Source of the DNA: Polycladomyces zharkentensis
GTDB lineage: Bacteria > Bacillota > Bacilli > Thermoactinomycetales > JIR-001
Length of the DNA stretch: 64,000 nt
NCBI RefSeq assembly: GCF_016938855.1
Contig: NZ_JAFHAP010000008.1
Location: 310,280 to 374,279 of the forward strand
Direction of reading: 5' to 3'
The position numbers and the translations under genes were made by a program. Under the pieces are notes generated by a model. The model had not been told where the DNA came from and made no database searches. It saw only the letters and a program-made list of their open reading frames with translations. Of the stretch, positions 1,009 through 63,745 are shown piece by piece. Within the stretch, counting starts at the first letter, position 1. The number at the start of each line of letters is the position of its first letter.

Positions 1009-1475
1009 ATAAAACCACCCTGATATCGCAATTCATACACTTTTGTATCTTTCAGGCGGATTTCCTCATATCCATGAAAGCGATCCAGTGTTCCCTCCCA
1101 TTGGTTCAGATAGATAAGCGACCCATTTTTCCAGATGTCCGGCCCCCGATAAGGCGCCTCCTCCGATCCCAAGCGCAATGCTTCTCGCAAGAATGCATAG
1201 ATGGAACGAATCTGTTCCCGATCGCTGATGTTGAGCACTCCTCCCCCATAGCTCATAGCCCATACGGGTTGGTCCAAATGATATACCGTTTCCATCCCTG
1301 TAAACCTCTCCATACCGAAATAGATATCCCGGTAGAAATAAGCACCATCACGATATTCCAATTGTTTGGATCCTTGTAACTGTGGTGGGACGGTAGCATC
1401 GTCTCCTTGGGAAGCATATGTGGATCGTTTGGCTGTTAGGAGGAAAGAAATGAGTCTGCGGTGCATATGGATCAT
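1005..1475 (-). CDS. DUF5680 domain protein, 3' end altered by IS insertion
   Basis: The 156-residue product resembles the DUF5680 family: an N-terminal helix (LISFLLTAKRSTYASQGDD), the core YRDIYFGMERFTGMETVYH and a C-terminal YELRYQGGFI. Function is unknown; the fold is a small globular cytoplasmic domain. The stop codon TAG lies at 1005-1007, inside the left end of IS remnant A, so the last residue(s) of the protein are set by the insertion. Because the family ends near this point, the product may still be active. The start ATG has no strong Shine-Dalgarno sequence, and the internal ATG three codons later is an alternative. Confidence 0.6.
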   Translation of the reverse strand: MIHMHRRLISFLLTAKRSTYASQGDDATVPPQLQGSKQLEYRDGAYFYRDIYFGMERFTGMETVYHLDQPVWAMSYGGGVLNISDREQIRSIYAFLREALRLGSEEAPYRGPDIWKNGSLIYLNQWEGTLDRFHGYEEIRLKDTKVYELRYQGGFI

Positions 1476-6495: not shown

Positions 6496-7368
6496 ATGAG
6501 AAGTGAAAAGGAAATGCTCGATTTGATACTGAATTTTGCGAATGATGATAAACGGATCCGCGCGGTCATATTGAACGGATCACGCGCCAATCCGAATGCG
6601 CCCCGCGATCTGTTTCAAGACTACGACATCATGTATATCGTATCCTCCGTGGATGATTTTGTCCAAGACCGCAGTTGGATCAATACCTTCGGAGAATTGA
6701 TCATGATGCAAACGCCCGATGAAAAAGTTTTCCCGCCACCAGATCCTAACGATGGCAGCTTTGCATTTCTGATGTTGTTCACGGATGGGAATCGGATCGA
6801 TCTCACGTTTTATCCCGCTGACAATATATCCGAATTGCGTTTGGAAAGCACCAGTTTGCTTCTGCTGGATAAGGACGGAATATTGGAACCGTTGCCACCG
6901 GCAAGTGACAAAGATGGTGTCCCTGCACCTCCTGCTGAAAAAGAGTTTCAGGACTGTTGCAACGAATTTTGGTGGATTACAACAAACATCGCCAAAGGAT
7001 TGTGGCGCAAGGAGCTTCCATATGTGAAGTACATGTACGATCGTCCTGCACGGGATGCGCTTAACGCGATGTTGAGTTGGTATATTGGTACTCAAACAGG
7101 CTTTTCCGTCGATACAGGAAAGTTTGGCAAGTATTTCGAGAAGTATCTTGATCCGAAGCGTTGGAAAGCATTCGTCCAAACATTCCCTGATGGCGAATAC
7201 GATAATATTTGGCAGTCCCTTTTTGTGATGTGTGATCTCTTTAGGGAGACCGCGATTGAGGTGGCGCTGCATTTTGGATTCCCCTATCCATATGACGATG
7301 ATCGGAGAGTCACCGATTATCTGAAACGCGTACGGGTTCTTCCACGAGACGCGGAATCCATATTTTAA
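6496..7368 (+). CDS. aminoglycoside 6-adenylyltransferase family protein
   Basis: The 290-residue protein belongs to the ANT(6)/AadK nucleotidyltransferases, which transfer AMP to streptomycin-type aminoglycosides. The active-site signature is VILNGSRANPNAPRDLFQDY followed by DIMYIV, with the metal-binding DYD, and the third acidic residue is in GNRIDLTFYP. The C-terminal helical part (FWWITTNIAKGLWRKELPYV, MLSWYIGTQTGFSVDTGKFG) is also typical, and the length is normal (280-300). The ATG at 6496 follows a GGGGGGAG site. The gene has its own promoter and sits between relics. Intrinsic Bacillus AadK proteins are similar, so it may be a chromosomal family member; resistance cannot be inferred from sequence. 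Confidence 0.85.
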   Translation: MRSEKEMLDLILNFANDDKRIRAVILNGSRANPNAPRDLFQDYDIMYIVSSVDDFVQDRSWINTFGELIMMQTPDEKVFPPPDPNDGSFAFLMLFTDGNRIDLTFYPADNISELRLESTSLLLLDKDGILEPLPPASDKDGVPAPPAEKEFQDCCNEFWWITTNIAKGLWRKELPYVKYMYDRPARDALNAMLSWYIGTQTGFSVDTGKFGKYFEKYLDPKRWKAFVQTFPDGEYDNIWQSLFVMCDLFRETAIEVALHFGFPYPYDDDRRVTDYLKRVRVLPRDAESIF

Positions 7369-7560
7369 CAGGATGCCGCCAACAAAAGTGTGCGCCAAGC
7401 ACATCGGGAGAAATTTCACTCCGGTCTGCGAACGAAACCAAAGACAAACCCCGCTGGGGTCACCGGATCAAAAATGAACACAAAACCCCACGTAGGAGAG
7501 CCAAGGTTTGTTTCTGAACAAAAATTTCTTGACGAGGAGCAATCATGGCGTTCATTTGCT

Positions 7561-7608
7561 AAACAAAAATCAGACTACCGACCATGCTCGGCAGTCTGAT
7601 TTTTGTTT
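7561..7608. terminator. bidirectional terminator, 3' of aspB
   Basis: ATCAGACT...AGTCTGAT with an inner CCGA/TCGG pair forms the stem; A-run and T-run flank it on both sides, so it works on either strand. It overlaps the aspB stop. The 190 bases before it (7369-7560) contain no gene. Confidence 0.8.
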
Positions 7609-8788
7609 ATTGATACTTTTCAACGAAACGTTGAATCCGGTCCAGCGCTTTTTCCAGTTGTTCCATGGATGTCGCATACGAGATGCGGATATGATCGGGA
7701 GATCCGAATCCCGATCCGGGTACAACCGCCACTTTTTCTTCGTCCAACAAGGCTTTCACCCATGCATCCACATTCTCGAAGGGTGAAGCATCCGTGGCCG
7801 CACGCACATTGACGAACGCATAAAATGCTCCTTGCGGTGGCAAGATGCGGAACCCGGGGATCTCGGACAGACGTTTCACCACGAAATCGCGGCGTTCCTT
7901 GAAGGCGGCCCGCATGGTGTCCACCGGTTCCTGCGTACCGGTCAACGCGGCAATCGCCGCATATTGAGCGATGGAGGTGGGGTTGGAGGTGCTGTGGCTG
8001 GCCAATCCCGTCATCGCTTTGATGATACGGGCATCTCCAGCGGCATAACCAATCCGCCAACCGGTCATCGAGTAAGTTTTGGATACACCGTTGATGACAA
8101 TGGTATTCCGGTAGAAGTCCGGCCCCAGGCTGGCGATGCTCACATGTTTTTCTTCACCGTAAATCAGGTGTTGATAAATTTCGTCGGAGATGATCGCCAC
8201 ATCGTGTTCAAGGCACACTTCACCGAGCGCCCGCAGCTCCTCCGCCGTATAGACCATTCCGGTCGGATTGGAAGGACTGTTGATCAGAAACGCGCGTGTC
8301 CGATCGGTGATCGCGGCGCGCAGTTGCCCCGGCGTGATTTTGAATCGTTGTTCCTCAGTCCCTTCCACGATCACCGGAACGCCTCCGGCCAACTTCACCT
8401 GCTCAATGTAGCTGACCCAGTACGGAGCCGGGATAATCACTTCGTCACCGGGATCCAACATGGCCTGAAACAAGTTGTACAGTGCATGCTTGGCACCGAC
8501 TGTCACCACAATCTGATCCGGTTCATAACGCAAACCGTTGTCTTGACGAAACTTGTCGGCGATGGCTTTTTTCAACTCGGGAATCCCGCCTGAAGCCGTG
8601 TATTTCGTGTGCCCCGCACGCATGGCTTCTTCGGCCGCCTTCAAGATGTGTTCCGGCGTATTGAAGTCCGGCTCGCCGGCGCCGAGGCCGATAACGTCAT
8701 GTCCTTGTTGTCTCAGTTCTTTCGCTTTAGCGGTGATGGCCAGCGTGGACGAAGGGGTCAGTTGCTGAGCCCGCTCAGAAAGTTTCAT
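7607..8788 (-). CDS. aspB: aspartate aminotransferase, class I
   Basis: The 393-residue fold-type I PLP enzyme interconverts aspartate and 2-oxoglutarate with oxaloacetate and glutamate. The PLP lysine is K237 in NGVSKTYSMTGWRIGY; INSPSNPTGMVY and SDEIYQHLIYG hold the cofactor ring and phosphate; HIRISYATS carries the substrate-carboxylate arginine. It is of the thermophilic Bacillus AspB subgroup. AGGAGGAGAACC before the ATG is a strong ribosome-binding site. In B. subtilis aspB also follows the pan-ypm block, so position agrees with the call. Own promoter and own terminator, thus monocistronic. Confidence 0.95.
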   Translation of the reverse strand: MKLSERAQQLTPSSTLAITAKAKELRQQGHDVIGLGAGEPDFNTPEHILKAAEEAMRAGHTKYTASGGIPELKKAIADKFRQDNGLRYEPDQIVVTVGAKHALYNLFQAMLDPGDEVIIPAPYWVSYIEQVKLAGGVPVIVEGTEEQRFKITPGQLRAAITDRTRAFLINSPSNPTGMVYTAEELRALGEVCLEHDVAIISDEIYQHLIYGEEKHVSIASLGPDFYRNTIVINGVSKTYSMTGWRIGYAAGDARIIKAMTGLASHSTSNPTSIAQYAAIAALTGTQEPVDTMRAAFKERRDFVVKRLSEIPGFRILPPQGAFYAFVNVRAATDASPFENVDAWVKALLDEEKVAVVPGSGFGSPDHIRISYATSMEQLEKALDRIQRFVEKYQ

Positions 8789-46690: not shown

Positions 46691-46742
46691 AATAATCACC
46701 TATCCGCATGCCGTTATATCCCGACATTCGGTTGCAACACCA

Positions 46743-46912
46743 CTCCCTCGTTGAGTTTTAGCACTATACGGCATAGGTCGGCAACGGATGCCTCCCAGCT
46801 ACATTAAAAAAGACCTTAATCCGATCTTTCTTGTTGACCCATTGGCGTCTCTCGACATTTTTGGGCAGTAGCCTGTCTCCGTATAGGAGCCTCACCTAAC
46901 AGAGGAGTCCGC
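46743..46912 (-). ncRNA. M-box (ykoK) magnesium riboswitch
   Basis: On the minus strand the core landmarks occur in order: TTAGGTGAGGCTCCTATAC, GCTACTGCCC, ATGTCGAGAGACGCCAATGG, GTCAACAAG, CGGATTAAGG, GTAGCTGGGAGGCA, CCTATGCCGTATAGTGCTAA and AACTCAACGAGG. These match the conserved ykoK/mgtE leader of Bacillus nearly base for base. It lies 160 bases before mgtE and is followed by a terminator, so high Mg2+ should stop transcription. Confidence 0.95.
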
Positions 46913-60248: not shown

Positions 60249-61030
60249 GAGACCGCCCCCGTCAGCAACGCACGTACCGCCGATTCCGGATCATCCTGAC
60301 GCATCAGGGATTCCCCCACCAGCATCCCGTCCACGCCGCAAGCTGCCGCCCGTGCCACATCCTGCGGTGAAGCGATGCCGCTTTCGGTGATGACGGGGAT
60401 CGAATCGGGCAACAAGGGGCATAACCGTTCCGTGGTGGCCAAATCCGTCACAAACGTGTGCAGATCCCGGTTGTTGACACCCAATACATCCGGTTTTGCC
60501 GCCAGCGCCCGGTCCAATTCCTCTTCCCGGTGTACCTCTATCAACACTTCCAATCCCAGTTCGTGCGCCCTGCGGGACAGCGCAACGATGCGCTCCTCAT
60601 CCAATATGGCCGCGATCAGAAGGATGGCGTCGGCCCCGATCAACCGGCTTTCCACCACTTGACTTTCATCAAGCAAAAAATCCTTCCGCAGAACCGGAAT
60701 GTGGACCGTTTGCTTCACCGCGGTCAGGTAATCCGCCCGGCCGCTGAAAAACGTTTCGTCGGTCAACACCGAAATCGCTGCGGCACCTCCCCGTTCATAT
60801 GCCGCTGCGATTTGAACGGGATCGACCGTTTCCCGGATCGTACCCTTTGAAGGCGAAGCCGGCTTCACCTCCGCGATCAAAGCCGGAACACCGTTCTTCC
60901 GCTTCATGGCCTGCGCCAGCGATCGCACTGGCGGCATACGTTCGGCCCGTTTTGCATCTTCCGATGTCAGGCGGCTTTTCAACCGCTGTACTTCCTCCCG
61001 TTTCACCGATACGATTTTGTCAAGAAACAC
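60233..61030 (-). CDS. trpC: indole-3-glycerol phosphate synthase
   Basis: The 265-residue enzyme has ALIAEVKPASPSKGTIRETV (catalytic Lys), VLRKDFLLDESQVVESRLIG, LEVLIEVHREEELDRAL and VITESGIASPQDVARAA then CGVDGMLVGESLMR. A GTG at 61030 with GGAGGTG upstream is the start; the open frame further out is antisense or shadow of trpD. Confidence 0.95.
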   Translation of the reverse strand: MFLDKIVSVKREEVQRLKSRLTSEDAKRAERMPPVRSLAQAMKRKNGVPALIAEVKPASPSKGTIRETVDPVQIAAAYERGGAAAISVLTDETFFSGRADYLTAVKQTVHIPVLRKDFLLDESQVVESRLIGADAILLIAAILDEERIVALSRRAHELGLEVLIEVHREEELDRALAAKPDVLGVNNRDLHTFVTDLATTERLCPLLPDSIPVITESGIASPQDVARAAACGVDGMLVGESLMRQDDPESAVRALLTGAVSCEQR

Positions 61031-62045
61031 GCGAACACACCTCCACCGAAAACCGAACCATCTCCTCCAACTGGCGCAACGCCGCTCCTTCGTCGATCGC
61101 ACGGGCAGCCATCCGCACGCCTTCGGCCAGACTGTCAACTCGATCCGCCACCCACAACACCGCTCCGGCATTGGCCAACACGATGTCCCGCGGCGCCCCC
61201 GGTTCGCCGGCGAGCACCCGGCGGATCAAACCGGCGCTGGTTTGTGCGTCGCCGCCTGCCACCGCTGCCAGCGGTGCAGGGATCAAACCCATTTCCTCGG
61301 GTGTGATGGTATACGTGCGGACACGACCGTCTCGTACCTCGCTCACCCGTGTGGGGCCGGACACGGAGATTTCGTCCAGGCCGTCCATCCCGGCCACCAC
61401 CATGGCCCGCTCAATGCCCAACATCAACAATACGCGGGCGACCGTTTCCGTCAAATCAGGGTCGTACACGCCGACCAATTGGCGACGAACCCCGGCCGGA
61501 TTGGCCAGCGGACCCAGCAGATTGAAACAAGTGCGAAATCCGAGGGCTTTTCTTGCCGGCATGACATGTTTCATCGCTTGGTGATACAACGGCGCGTACA
61601 GAAAACAAATCCCCGTCTGTTCCAACATGGCGCGTGCAGCATCGGGTGTGGTGGAAATCTGCACGCCCAACGCTTCCAGCACATCAGCACTGCCGCTTTT
61701 GGATGAAACAGCCCGGTTGCCGTGTTTGGCCACCTTTACCCCGCAAGCGGAGGCAAGGATCGCGGCGGCGGTGGAAATATTGAACGTACGGCCGCCATCG
61801 CCGCCCGTTCCGCAAGTGTCCACGGCGTCGGTCGCAGGCTTCTCCCAGCGAAGCGCCCGACTGCGGAGACTCTCCGCCATTCCGGCCAACTCTTCGGCCG
61901 TTTCACCCTTCATGCGCAAAGCGGTCAGCAAACCGGCCACTTGCGCCGGCTCCCACAAGCCGTTCATCAATTCATCCATCACTTGACGGGCTTCGTCACG
62001 TGACAAATCGTGTCCTTCCACAACGCGGGTCAACAAAGCAGGCAT
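61020..62045 (-). CDS. trpD: anthranilate phosphoribosyltransferase
   Basis: The 341-residue enzyme has the PRPP loop DTCGTGGDGGRTFNISTAAA, VAKHGNRAVSSKSGSADVLE and FLYAPLYHQAMKHVMPARKA. It is the first structural gene behind the TRAP attenuator; trpE, which would normally come first, is absent between aroH and trpD. Confidence 0.96.
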   Translation of the reverse strand: MPALLTRVVEGHDLSRDEARQVMDELMNGLWEPAQVAGLLTALRMKGETAEELAGMAESLRSRALRWEKPATDAVDTCGTGGDGGRTFNISTAAAILASACGVKVAKHGNRAVSSKSGSADVLEALGVQISTTPDAARAMLEQTGICFLYAPLYHQAMKHVMPARKALGFRTCFNLLGPLANPAGVRRQLVGVYDPDLTETVARVLLMLGIERAMVVAGMDGLDEISVSGPTRVSEVRDGRVRTYTITPEEMGLIPAPLAAVAGGDAQTSAGLIRRVLAGEPGAPRDIVLANAGAVLWVADRVDSLAEGVRMAARAIDEGAALRQLEEMVRFSVEVCSRVS

Positions 62046-62130
62046 CGGTATCCCTCCGGTCGATGATGTGCGGGCTGATGAGACGACCGGCGGGAAGAGA
62101 ACAGAGAAGCAACGGGAGGATCAGTGAGGA

Positions 62131-62163
62131 AAGAAAAACGACCAAAGCAGAGGCGCTTTGGTC
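62131..62163 (-). terminator. trp attenuator terminator
   Basis: GACCAAAGC-gcctct-GCTTTGGTC on the minus strand is followed by GTTTTTCTTT. It lies between the TRAP site and trpD. CGGAGT (62190-62185) and ACTCCG (62168-62163) can pair as an antiterminator, whose 3' arm touches the first base of the terminator stem. Confidence 0.85.
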
Positions 62164-62185
62164 GGAGTTGTCCGTTTCGTTTTCA

Positions 62186-62248
62186 CTCCGCTCCGCTCTG
62201 CTATGCTCTTCCCGTCTCGTCTCCAACTCGGCTCAACTCGGCTTACTC
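62186..62248 (-). promoter_or_regulatory. TRAP-binding site of the trp leader
   Basis: Eleven GAG/TAG triplets can be counted on the minus strand between 62248 and 62186, nine of the spacers being 2-3 bases (GAGTTGAGCCGAGTTGGAG is the clearest part); one extra GGG sits in the middle. Eleven NAG repeats is the number that wraps once around the 11-subunit TRAP ring of Bacillus. Tryptophan-bound TRAP here would block the antiterminator and cause termination. The first repeats overlap the aroH stop. Confidence 0.9.
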
Positions 62249-62652
62249 ATCACTGTATCGGAGAATCCGTCGGGTGTCAATGACTCATTTTTCGCCAGAT
62301 CCGGCCGAAGCGACCGGGCACCGCGCAAATATACGTGTTCGATCTCCTTCTGACCCCGATTCGTATTGATCAGCAGTAACAGACGAATACAACGCGGCAA
62401 ACTTCCCGGCACCGGGATTTCATTGGCACACAGTAAAGGAACCATCTCCCATCCCGGAATGGATCGGATGGCCTCTGTCGGAAACACCGCGTTCAAATCG
62501 GTGGTCATCGTAACGAACACGCAAGCGATATCCTCCGGCGTCACCTGATTGCGCCGGATCATCTCCCGCAACAATTCCTCCGTCGCCGACAAAATCGGTT
62601 CCCCTTCATTTTTTTCCACCGTGGTTGCGCCGCGAATGCCTCGCACCTTCAT
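62233..62652 (-). CDS. aroH: chorismate mutase, AroH type
   Basis: The 139-residue trimeric enzyme converts chorismate to prephenate. VRGIRGATTVEKNEGEPILS (Arg ligands), VFVTMTTDLNAVFPTEAIRS and HVYLRGARSLRPDL match the Bacillus AroH fold, including the C-terminal tail. Its stop codon lies inside the TRAP site and its last ~15 codons contain the trp promoter. It follows aroB by one base. Confidence 0.95.
   Translation of the reverse strand: MKVRGIRGATTVEKNEGEPILSATEELLREMIRRNQVTPEDIACVFVTMTTDLNAVFPTEAIRSIPGWEMVPLLCANEIPVPGSLPRCIRLLLLINTNRGQKEIEHVYLRGARSLRPDLAKNESLTPDGFSDTVMSKPS
62252..62280 (-). promoter_or_regulatory. trp promoter inside the 3' end of aroH
   Basis: TTGACA (62280-62275) and TACAGT (62257-62252) are 17 bases apart, in the last codons of aroH. 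A transcript from here would begin directly at the TRAP site. Confidence 0.6.
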
Positions 62653-62653
62653 C

Positions 62654-63745
62654 TTATTCCTCCTTCAACCGCCGCAACGCTTCGCGTATCACACGCTCCT
62701 CGACTCCTTTTTTCACTTCCACCGTACCGATACCCTTGGGCAAAACAAATACGTATTCCCCTTGTCGCGCTTTTTTGTCCCTGCGCATCAGAGTAAGCAA
62801 TTCCTCATCGGAAAGCGGTTCATCCAAACTTACGGGCAGACCGTACAACGCGAGCAGACGCCGGGTGAACCCGGCCACGTCCCGTGCCGTCCCCAACAGC
62901 TCTCCCAGGATCGCTTCTCCCACCATTCCGATCGCCACCGCCTCGCCATGCGTCCAACGACGGTAGCCTGTCACCGCCTCCAACGCATGGCCGATGGTGT
63001 GACCGTAGTTCAATATGGCGCGCAGACCGGATTCGCGTTCGTCGCGGGCCACCACCTGTGCTTTGATGGCGCATCCACGCACGATTGCTTCCGTCAGCAG
63101 AGCCGGGTCCCGTTGCAACAGCGCCTCATGATGTTGTGCCAGCCACATCGCGAAATCCGCGTCGGCAATCAGTGCGTGTTTGATCACCTCGGCAAAGCCG
63201 GAAGCCAACTCCCGTTCAGGCAAAGTGGCGAGTGTATCCACATCAAACAACACCAATTCGGGCTGATGAAACGCACCGATCATATTTTTGCCCAGCGAAT
63301 GGTTGACCCCCGTTTTCCCGCCCACACTGCTGTCGTGAGCCAACAGTGTCGTGGGGAGTTGCACGAACCGGATGCCACGCATGTAAACGGCCGCCAAAAA
63401 CCCGGCCAAATCTCCGACCACTCCGCCGCCGAGCGCCAACACCGCGCTGTCCCGATCCATGCCGAAGCGAATCGCTTCTTCCACCAACCGGGACAACTGA
63501 TCCAGGCTTTTGGAAGCTTCACCCGCCGGCACCACAATCATCCGAACCCGGTATCCGGCCGACTCCAACGGTGTCAGCACGCGTTTGCCGTAATGCGGCG
63601 CCACACTGGAATCGGTCACGACCAACAGTGAATGTGCGGGCGTGATTTGACGCTGTTGAAGCCAACGGGGCAAATCCGCATACAAACCGGAACCGACCAC
63701 GATGGGATAGGACCGATCGCCCAACGCCACTTCCAACGTGCGCAT
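62654..63745 (-). CDS. aroB: 3-dehydroquinate synthase
   Basis: The 363-residue NAD- and metal-dependent enzyme makes 3-dehydroquinate. VLALGGGVVGDLAGFLAAVY, RGIRFVQLPTTLLAHDSSVG, GKTGVNHSLGKNMIGAFHQP and LNYGHTIGHALEAVTGYRRW (His metal ligands) are intact. aroC ends two bases upstream. Confidence 0.97.
   Translation of the reverse strand: MRTLEVALGDRSYPIVVGSGLYADLPRWLQQRQITPAHSLLVVTDSSVAPHYGKRVLTPLESAGYRVRMIVVPAGEASKSLDQLSRLVEEAIRFGMDRDSAVLALGGGVVGDLAGFLAAVYMRGIRFVQLPTTLLAHDSSVGGKTGVNHSLGKNMIGAFHQPELVLFDVDTLATLPERELASGFAEVIKHALIADADFAMWLAQHHEALLQRDPALLTEAIVRGCAIKAQVVARDERESGLRAILNYGHTIGHALEAVTGYRRWTHGEAVAIGMVGEAILGELLGTARDVAGFTRRLLALYGLPVSLDEPLSDEELLTLMRRDKKARQGEYVFVLPKGIGTVEVKKGVEERVIREALRRLKEE

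Follow-up and report, generated by a model that had tools for sequence, protein, structure and literature searches.

A probable TRAP attenuator in front of trpD and a TRAP-type leader before a separate trpE-trpG fusion in Polycladomyces zharkentensis

The window analysed here, a stretch of 64,000 nucleotides from the genome of Polycladomyces zharkentensis, carries on its minus strand the genes aroC, aroB and aroH, followed by trpD, trpC, trpF, trpB, trpA, hisC, tyrA and aroA. The names of trpD and aroH were checked against NCBIfam, while the remaining gene names rest on sequence and gene order. Between aroH and trpD lies a leader with the features listed in Table 1. No trpE is present between this leader and trpD, and trpD opens the operon; the gene calls and the TIGR01245 match agree on this point with the preliminary description of the locus, which had named trpD as the first gene with trpE missing in front of it. 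An M-box magnesium riboswitch is found elsewhere in the window (46737-46910, minus strand, 144 bits).

Table 1. Locations of the features discussed in the text. Positions without a contig or sequence label are those of the window.
Feature	Location	Strand	Remarks
trpD	61020..62045	minus	ATG at 62045; TIGR01245, 432 bits; heads the shortened operon trpDCFBA-hisC-tyrA-aroA
aroH, chorismate mutase	62233..62652	minus	TIGR01796; holds the promoter and the first triplets; stop codon 62235-62233
aroB	62654..63745	minus	Upstream gene of the aro block; named by sequence and gene order
Promoter TTGACA-N17-TACAGT	62252..62280	minus	Within the 3' end of aroH; 10 of 12 matches
TRAP-type triplet array, eleven GAG/TAG	62186..62248	minus	Overlaps the aroH stop; ten triplets certainly transcribed
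Predicted antiterminator	62147..62201	minus	62201-62185 pairs with 62168-62163 and 62155-62147; nascent-RNA folding, three species
Intrinsic terminator hairpin	62139..62164	minus	11 pairs, then TTTTT at 62138-62134
Possible Shine-Dalgarno-blocking hairpin	62052..62090	minus	CCGGTCG (62090-62084) with CGACCGG (62062-62056), over GGAGGG (62057-62052)
trpEG triplet array, nine GAG	C4:317385-317433 (L006 8386-8434)	minus	Chain reached by chance in 0 of 3,000
Seinonella trpE triplets	L054 ~1364-1413 (reverse-complement coordinates) = L082 6791-6846	minus	
Two-cluster trpE leader	L044 1705-1729 and 1775-1818		L046 and L048 have a similar layout
T-box leaders before TrpEG fusions from a different class of the phylum	L102 1064-1310; L103 1062-1308; L104 3786-4032		

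The promoter of the trpD leader, of the sigma-A type, is the one promoter-like match found, against 0.2 expected in shuffled sequences, and it is invariant across three species of the genus. The triplets behind it start at 62248, 62239, 62234, 62229, 62223, 62218, 62208, 62203, 62198, 62193 and 62188, with the second and third overlapping the aroH end. The preliminary description had put the promoter in the last aroH codons and the repeats over the aroH stop, and both statements stand. It had also counted eleven GAG/TAG triplets; all are there, but the first (62248-62246) lies only 3-6 nt beyond the -10 box, at the probable +1 or immediately upstream of it, and may be untranscribed, which leaves ten that are certain in the RNA. 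Eight neighbouring pairs of triplets are spaced 2-3 nt apart, a chain that was reached by none of 3,000 random 160-nt sequences sharing the dinucleotide make-up of the real one. Eleven triplets in 66 nt likewise occurred in none of 200 random 64-kb sequences, where the maximum was nine, in a single case. Among the three species all of the triplets are invariant and the single change within the array falls in a spacer; changes are found in aroH codons, in spacers and in loops, while promoter, triplets and terminator stem have remained unchanged or nearly so. Because an Rfam search of the leader matched no family, its identification rests on triplets, structure and comparison.

The terminator and matching antiterminator previously proposed for this leader were both recovered, the former as a hairpin followed by five T and the latter by folding. 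The 5' arm of the predicted antiterminator consists of TRAP triplets. When the RNA of the three species was folded up to the U-run, the probability of the terminator stem was 0.20-0.39 with the triplets free versus 0.78-0.79 with the triplets blocked; that is, antiterminator and terminator are predicted to be mutually exclusive, with the antiterminator built on the TRAP triplets. Folding of the full-length leader predicts the terminator stem whether the triplets are free or blocked, so that the decision must fall on the nascent RNA. Across nine leaders of the order Thermoactinomycetales, three of the eight pairs of the stem show compensatory changes and 100% of the cells are paired, compared with 28-58% in a sliding control. 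Further downstream, the hairpin that might block the trpD Shine-Dalgarno sequence has a probability of 0.52-1.00 in TRAP-blocked RNA versus 0.00 in free RNA, although the Shine-Dalgarno sequence itself is mostly paired in both states. Its stem is kept in the three species and its loop is variable.

A TRAP attenuator calls for TRAP, and a search of the genome found its gene, mtrB, at G000:C8:385075-385278(-) with an E-value of 1.2e-41. A genome lacking mtrB, which the preliminary description had named as a refutation of the attenuator, is thereby excluded. The gene lies about 12 kb upstream of the trpD leader in the order hbs, folE, mtrB, hepS; folE-mtrB followed by aroB-aroH is the classical gene order. 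The protein is near-identical to solved TRAP structures throughout the region whose residues we take to bind RNA and tryptophan, and mtrB is present in 39 of the 42 genomes of the order. Together, the anatomy of the leader, its conservation in three species, the covariation and the presence of mtrB argue for the TRAP attenuator that had been proposed in front of trpD.

The preliminary description had placed the missing trpE elsewhere in the genome, and we found it there as a fused gene, trpEG. Chorismate-binding genes number three in this genome: one at C11 is PabB-like, one at C21 is of the isochorismate or a related type, and one at C4, on a different contig from trpD, encodes a 727-aa protein that joins TrpE and TrpG domains (PF04715, PF00425 and PF00117). 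This protein scores 1006 bits against TIGR01815 (cut-off 739) and 1052 bits against PRK13566, also over the cut-off, and by these matches it is classed as a clade 3 TrpE-TrpG fusion (TIGR01815). Its neighbourhood reads gpr, spoIIP, yqxA, trpEG, lepA, hemN, where the name yqxA rests on a DUF3679 domain and on position. We considered the C11 gene as trpE and rejected it, because it is PabB-like, has the motif PIKGT, and passes the TIGR00553 pabB cut-off while failing the trpE cut-off. The survey of chorismate-binding genes revealed no second trpE in the genome besides trpEG. Unlike B. subtilis trpG, the folate pabA of this genome has no TRAP triplet cluster upstream (L084, reverse-complement 7017-7736), which agrees with the fusion having a TrpG domain of its own.

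The trpEG gene has a leader of its own. Its promoter, TTGATG-N18-TATAGT, starts 6 nt past the yqxA stop and is followed by the nine GAG triplets; promoter and triplets form the best-conserved part of the yqxA-trpEG intergenic stretch in the three species, with the differences falling in spacers. A loose triplet pattern matched 14 times genome-wide and its reversed control 37 times, which leaves single matches without meaning; nothing stood out in the scan except the overlapping cluster at C4 and the known trpD site. The earlier conclusion that the control of trpE must differ was not borne out in its main part, since trpEG has its own conserved array of TRAP-type triplets. It survives for the details of the leader, namely the Shine-Dalgarno hairpin and the lack of a clear antiterminator/terminator switch.

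How TRAP might act at trpEG was approached by folding. The leader has no evident antiterminator/terminator pair, the same hairpin being predicted with the triplets free and blocked, and its U-run does not directly follow the hairpin. A conserved hairpin, TCCTCC/GGAGGA, covers the Shine-Dalgarno sequence; in one species its probability rises from 0.02 in free to 0.71 in blocked RNA, whereas in the two others it forms in free RNA too (0.71 and 0.67). A refolding switch over the Shine-Dalgarno sequence, such as the TRAP-dependent one at B. subtilis trpE (PMC11255114), is thus possible, though only partly supported by the folding. TRAP-caused termination at the U-run would be a second, open route: six or seven T stand in a conserved run some distance past the leader hairpin, and TRAP of B. 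subtilis can bring about termination in vivo even where no functional hairpin is present, provided that an A+U-rich stretch lies downstream (PMC3913778). No T-box (RF00230) was matched in the window or in L018, and no other Rfam element in the trpEG leader; the T-box search itself works, as RF00230 is matched in L102-L104.

The fusion occurs in all three genomes of the genus and in none of the 39 others of the order. Elsewhere in the order, trpE stands immediately before trpD at 25 of 27 trpD loci, and an operon that has lost trpE is therefore the derived state. In a sample of the phylum, TrpEG fusions were found in 7 of 398 genomes, and the six outside the genus, all from other classes, are 51-56% identical to the fusion of the genus. 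No TRAP array was seen in the inspected stretch upstream of these six, and three of them have T-box leaders, so that in another class the same enzyme is found with a different sensor of tryptophan starvation.

Leaders elsewhere in the order also bear on the compactness of the trpD leader, which the preliminary description had called a compact, coding-overlapping version of the classic one. In Lihuaxuella the promoter also lies within aroH (-35 at 1663, with aroH ending at 1688), and in Seinonella the promoter of the trpD leader begins 5 nt past the aroH stop. Judged from these sequences, compactness is a habit of the order and not of the P. zharkentensis genome alone. Several trpE leaders of the order have two triplet clusters about 45-60 nt apart and not one run of eleven. 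In G030, about 600 bp separate trpE from a divergent trpD downstream of it (C6:976677-979553; 39% identity), perhaps with trpG between them; the trp operon of this genome is differently built although mtrB is present.

A second lineage, Seinonella peptonophila and genome G023, has aroH, a TRAP leader with a terminator, and then trpD without trpE. The TrpD tree needs two changes to account for the trpD-first leaders, and Seinonella and G023 do not join Polycladomyces in a single one of 200 bootstrap trees. A TRAP leader directly before trpD therefore seems to have arisen separately in the Seinonella lineage, although the strongest branches alone allow one origin. The idea that Seinonella has no trpE at all was dropped when trpE and trpG were found side by side at another locus, behind a TTGACA-N17-TACTAT promoter. 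Genome G031 of the order has a TrpE 100% identical to that of S. peptonophila. About eight transcribed G/UAG triplets run across the Shine-Dalgarno sequence and start codon of this trpE, which suggests a direct TRAP block of translation. Another cluster of eight triplets (L082 13443-13506) was considered and not taken as a TRAP site. For G023, no trpE was found in the genome, which is 68% complete.

We consider it very probable that P. zharkentensis has kept a working TRAP attenuator before trpD, that its operon trpE was replaced by an acquired, TRAP-controlled trpEG, and that both are under TRAP. With ample tryptophan, TRAP would occupy the GAG/UAG triplets, the antiterminator would not form, and transcription would stop before trpD; with scarce tryptophan, the antiterminator would form and trpDCFBA would be read. 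The lost trpE would have given way to a horizontally acquired clade 3 fusion placed between yqxA and lepA. Through two transcripts TRAP would then govern the committed step alongside the remaining steps of the pathway, most probably by termination at trpD and by a translation block, U-run termination or both at trpEG. The simplest reading of the comparisons comprises a horizontal gain of trpEG, the evolution of a TRAP leader there, and the loss of trpE from the operon, in one order or another.

Three other explanations have to be weighed against this one. Because the assembly is a draft of 22 contigs, one might suppose that the operon trpE is really present and was lost by misassembly. Beyond the draft state nothing speaks for this, no second trpE is found among the chorismate-binding genes (trpEG, the pabB-like gene and the one at C21), and the same arrangement recurs in two further genomes of the genus, one of them a single contig, so that the supposition is already refuted and its probability is close to nil. 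The trpD leader could alternatively be a relic, with transcription of the operon coming mostly from the aro promoter upstream and with TRAP control of importance only at trpEG; trpE is gone, its replacement has a TRAP leader of its own, and control of trpEG alone would limit the flux into the pathway. Yet across the three species hardly any change is seen in the promoter, in any of the triplets or in the terminator, while the adjoining aroH codons and loops have changed, the terminator would with TRAP bound stop read-through from upstream, and the same arrangement is kept in the second lineage, all of which makes a relic quite improbable.

The third concerns trpEG, whose triplets might be a chance feature of a purine-rich leader or serve another function, the gene being controlled otherwise. 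The leader shows no clear terminator switch, and its array comprises no more than nine G/UAG triplets, the spacing of which is broken twice. Against this, seven spacings of the chain are of 2-3 nt and chance did not reproduce it (Table 1), the triplets are invariant in three species while the spacers have changed, a conserved promoter lies directly upstream, and neither a T-box nor another Rfam element is found there. TRAP targets of B. subtilis also include sites at translation start regions (PMC11255114). We regard this explanation as unlikely and infer that TRAP would bind both leaders, which would form a split TRAP regulon, a variant of the known system that the comparisons support well.

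TRAP is a textbook example of control at the RNA level, and what is known of it comes mainly from a single operon layout in Bacillus. Here a split operon and a foreign fusion both carry TRAP arrays in three species, and a second lineage has a parallel solution. On balance it seems probable that TRAP regulons repeatedly outlast the break-up of the trp operon, with the attenuator staying at trpD and a new site appearing at the new anthranilate synthase gene, in a different mode each time: an upstream leader array in Polycladomyces and an array over the start codon in Seinonella. Such cases are natural replicates in which one may ask how a regulator that binds RNA gains a new target, and whether splitting control between termination and translation alters the response of the pathway to tryptophan. 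If our reading is true, trpEG is a horizontally acquired enzyme put under a resident RNA-binding regulator. The split regulon would also set anthranilate synthase apart from folate PabA, whose gene has no visible TRAP array.

A literature search, which covered few subscription papers, turned up no account of trpD standing directly behind a TRAP leader, nor of a TrpEG fusion under TRAP control. The trpD leader resembles that of B. subtilis trpEDCFBA, which is 203 nt long (PMC3913778), in its (G/U)AG triplets 2-3 nt apart, its overlapping antiterminator and terminator, and its possible Shine-Dalgarno hairpin (PMC3913778, PMC11255114). It differs in that trpD comes first and trpE is absent, in a stronger terminator with five unbroken T, and in a promoter within the coding end of aroH. 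In B. subtilis, as here, mtrB stands with folE and the aro genes lie upstream of the trp operon. The trpE leaders of the Thermoactinomycetaceae (Lihuaxuella, Thermoactinomyces, Marinithermofilum and Hazenella) share the triplets, a near-identical terminator and, where tested, a promoter at or in the aroH end, but they lead into trpE, and the triplets of some form two clusters. TrpEG is the same fusion as the clade 3 proteins (TIGR01815) of other classes, which have a T-box (in three cases) and no TRAP array in the upstream stretch that was inspected. At B. subtilis trpG, trpP and ycbK, TRAP blocks the translation of unlinked genes (PMC11255114); Seinonella trpE resembles this type of site, whereas the trpEG site of Polycladomyces differs from it in lying about 120 nt before the Shine-Dalgarno sequence and not over it.
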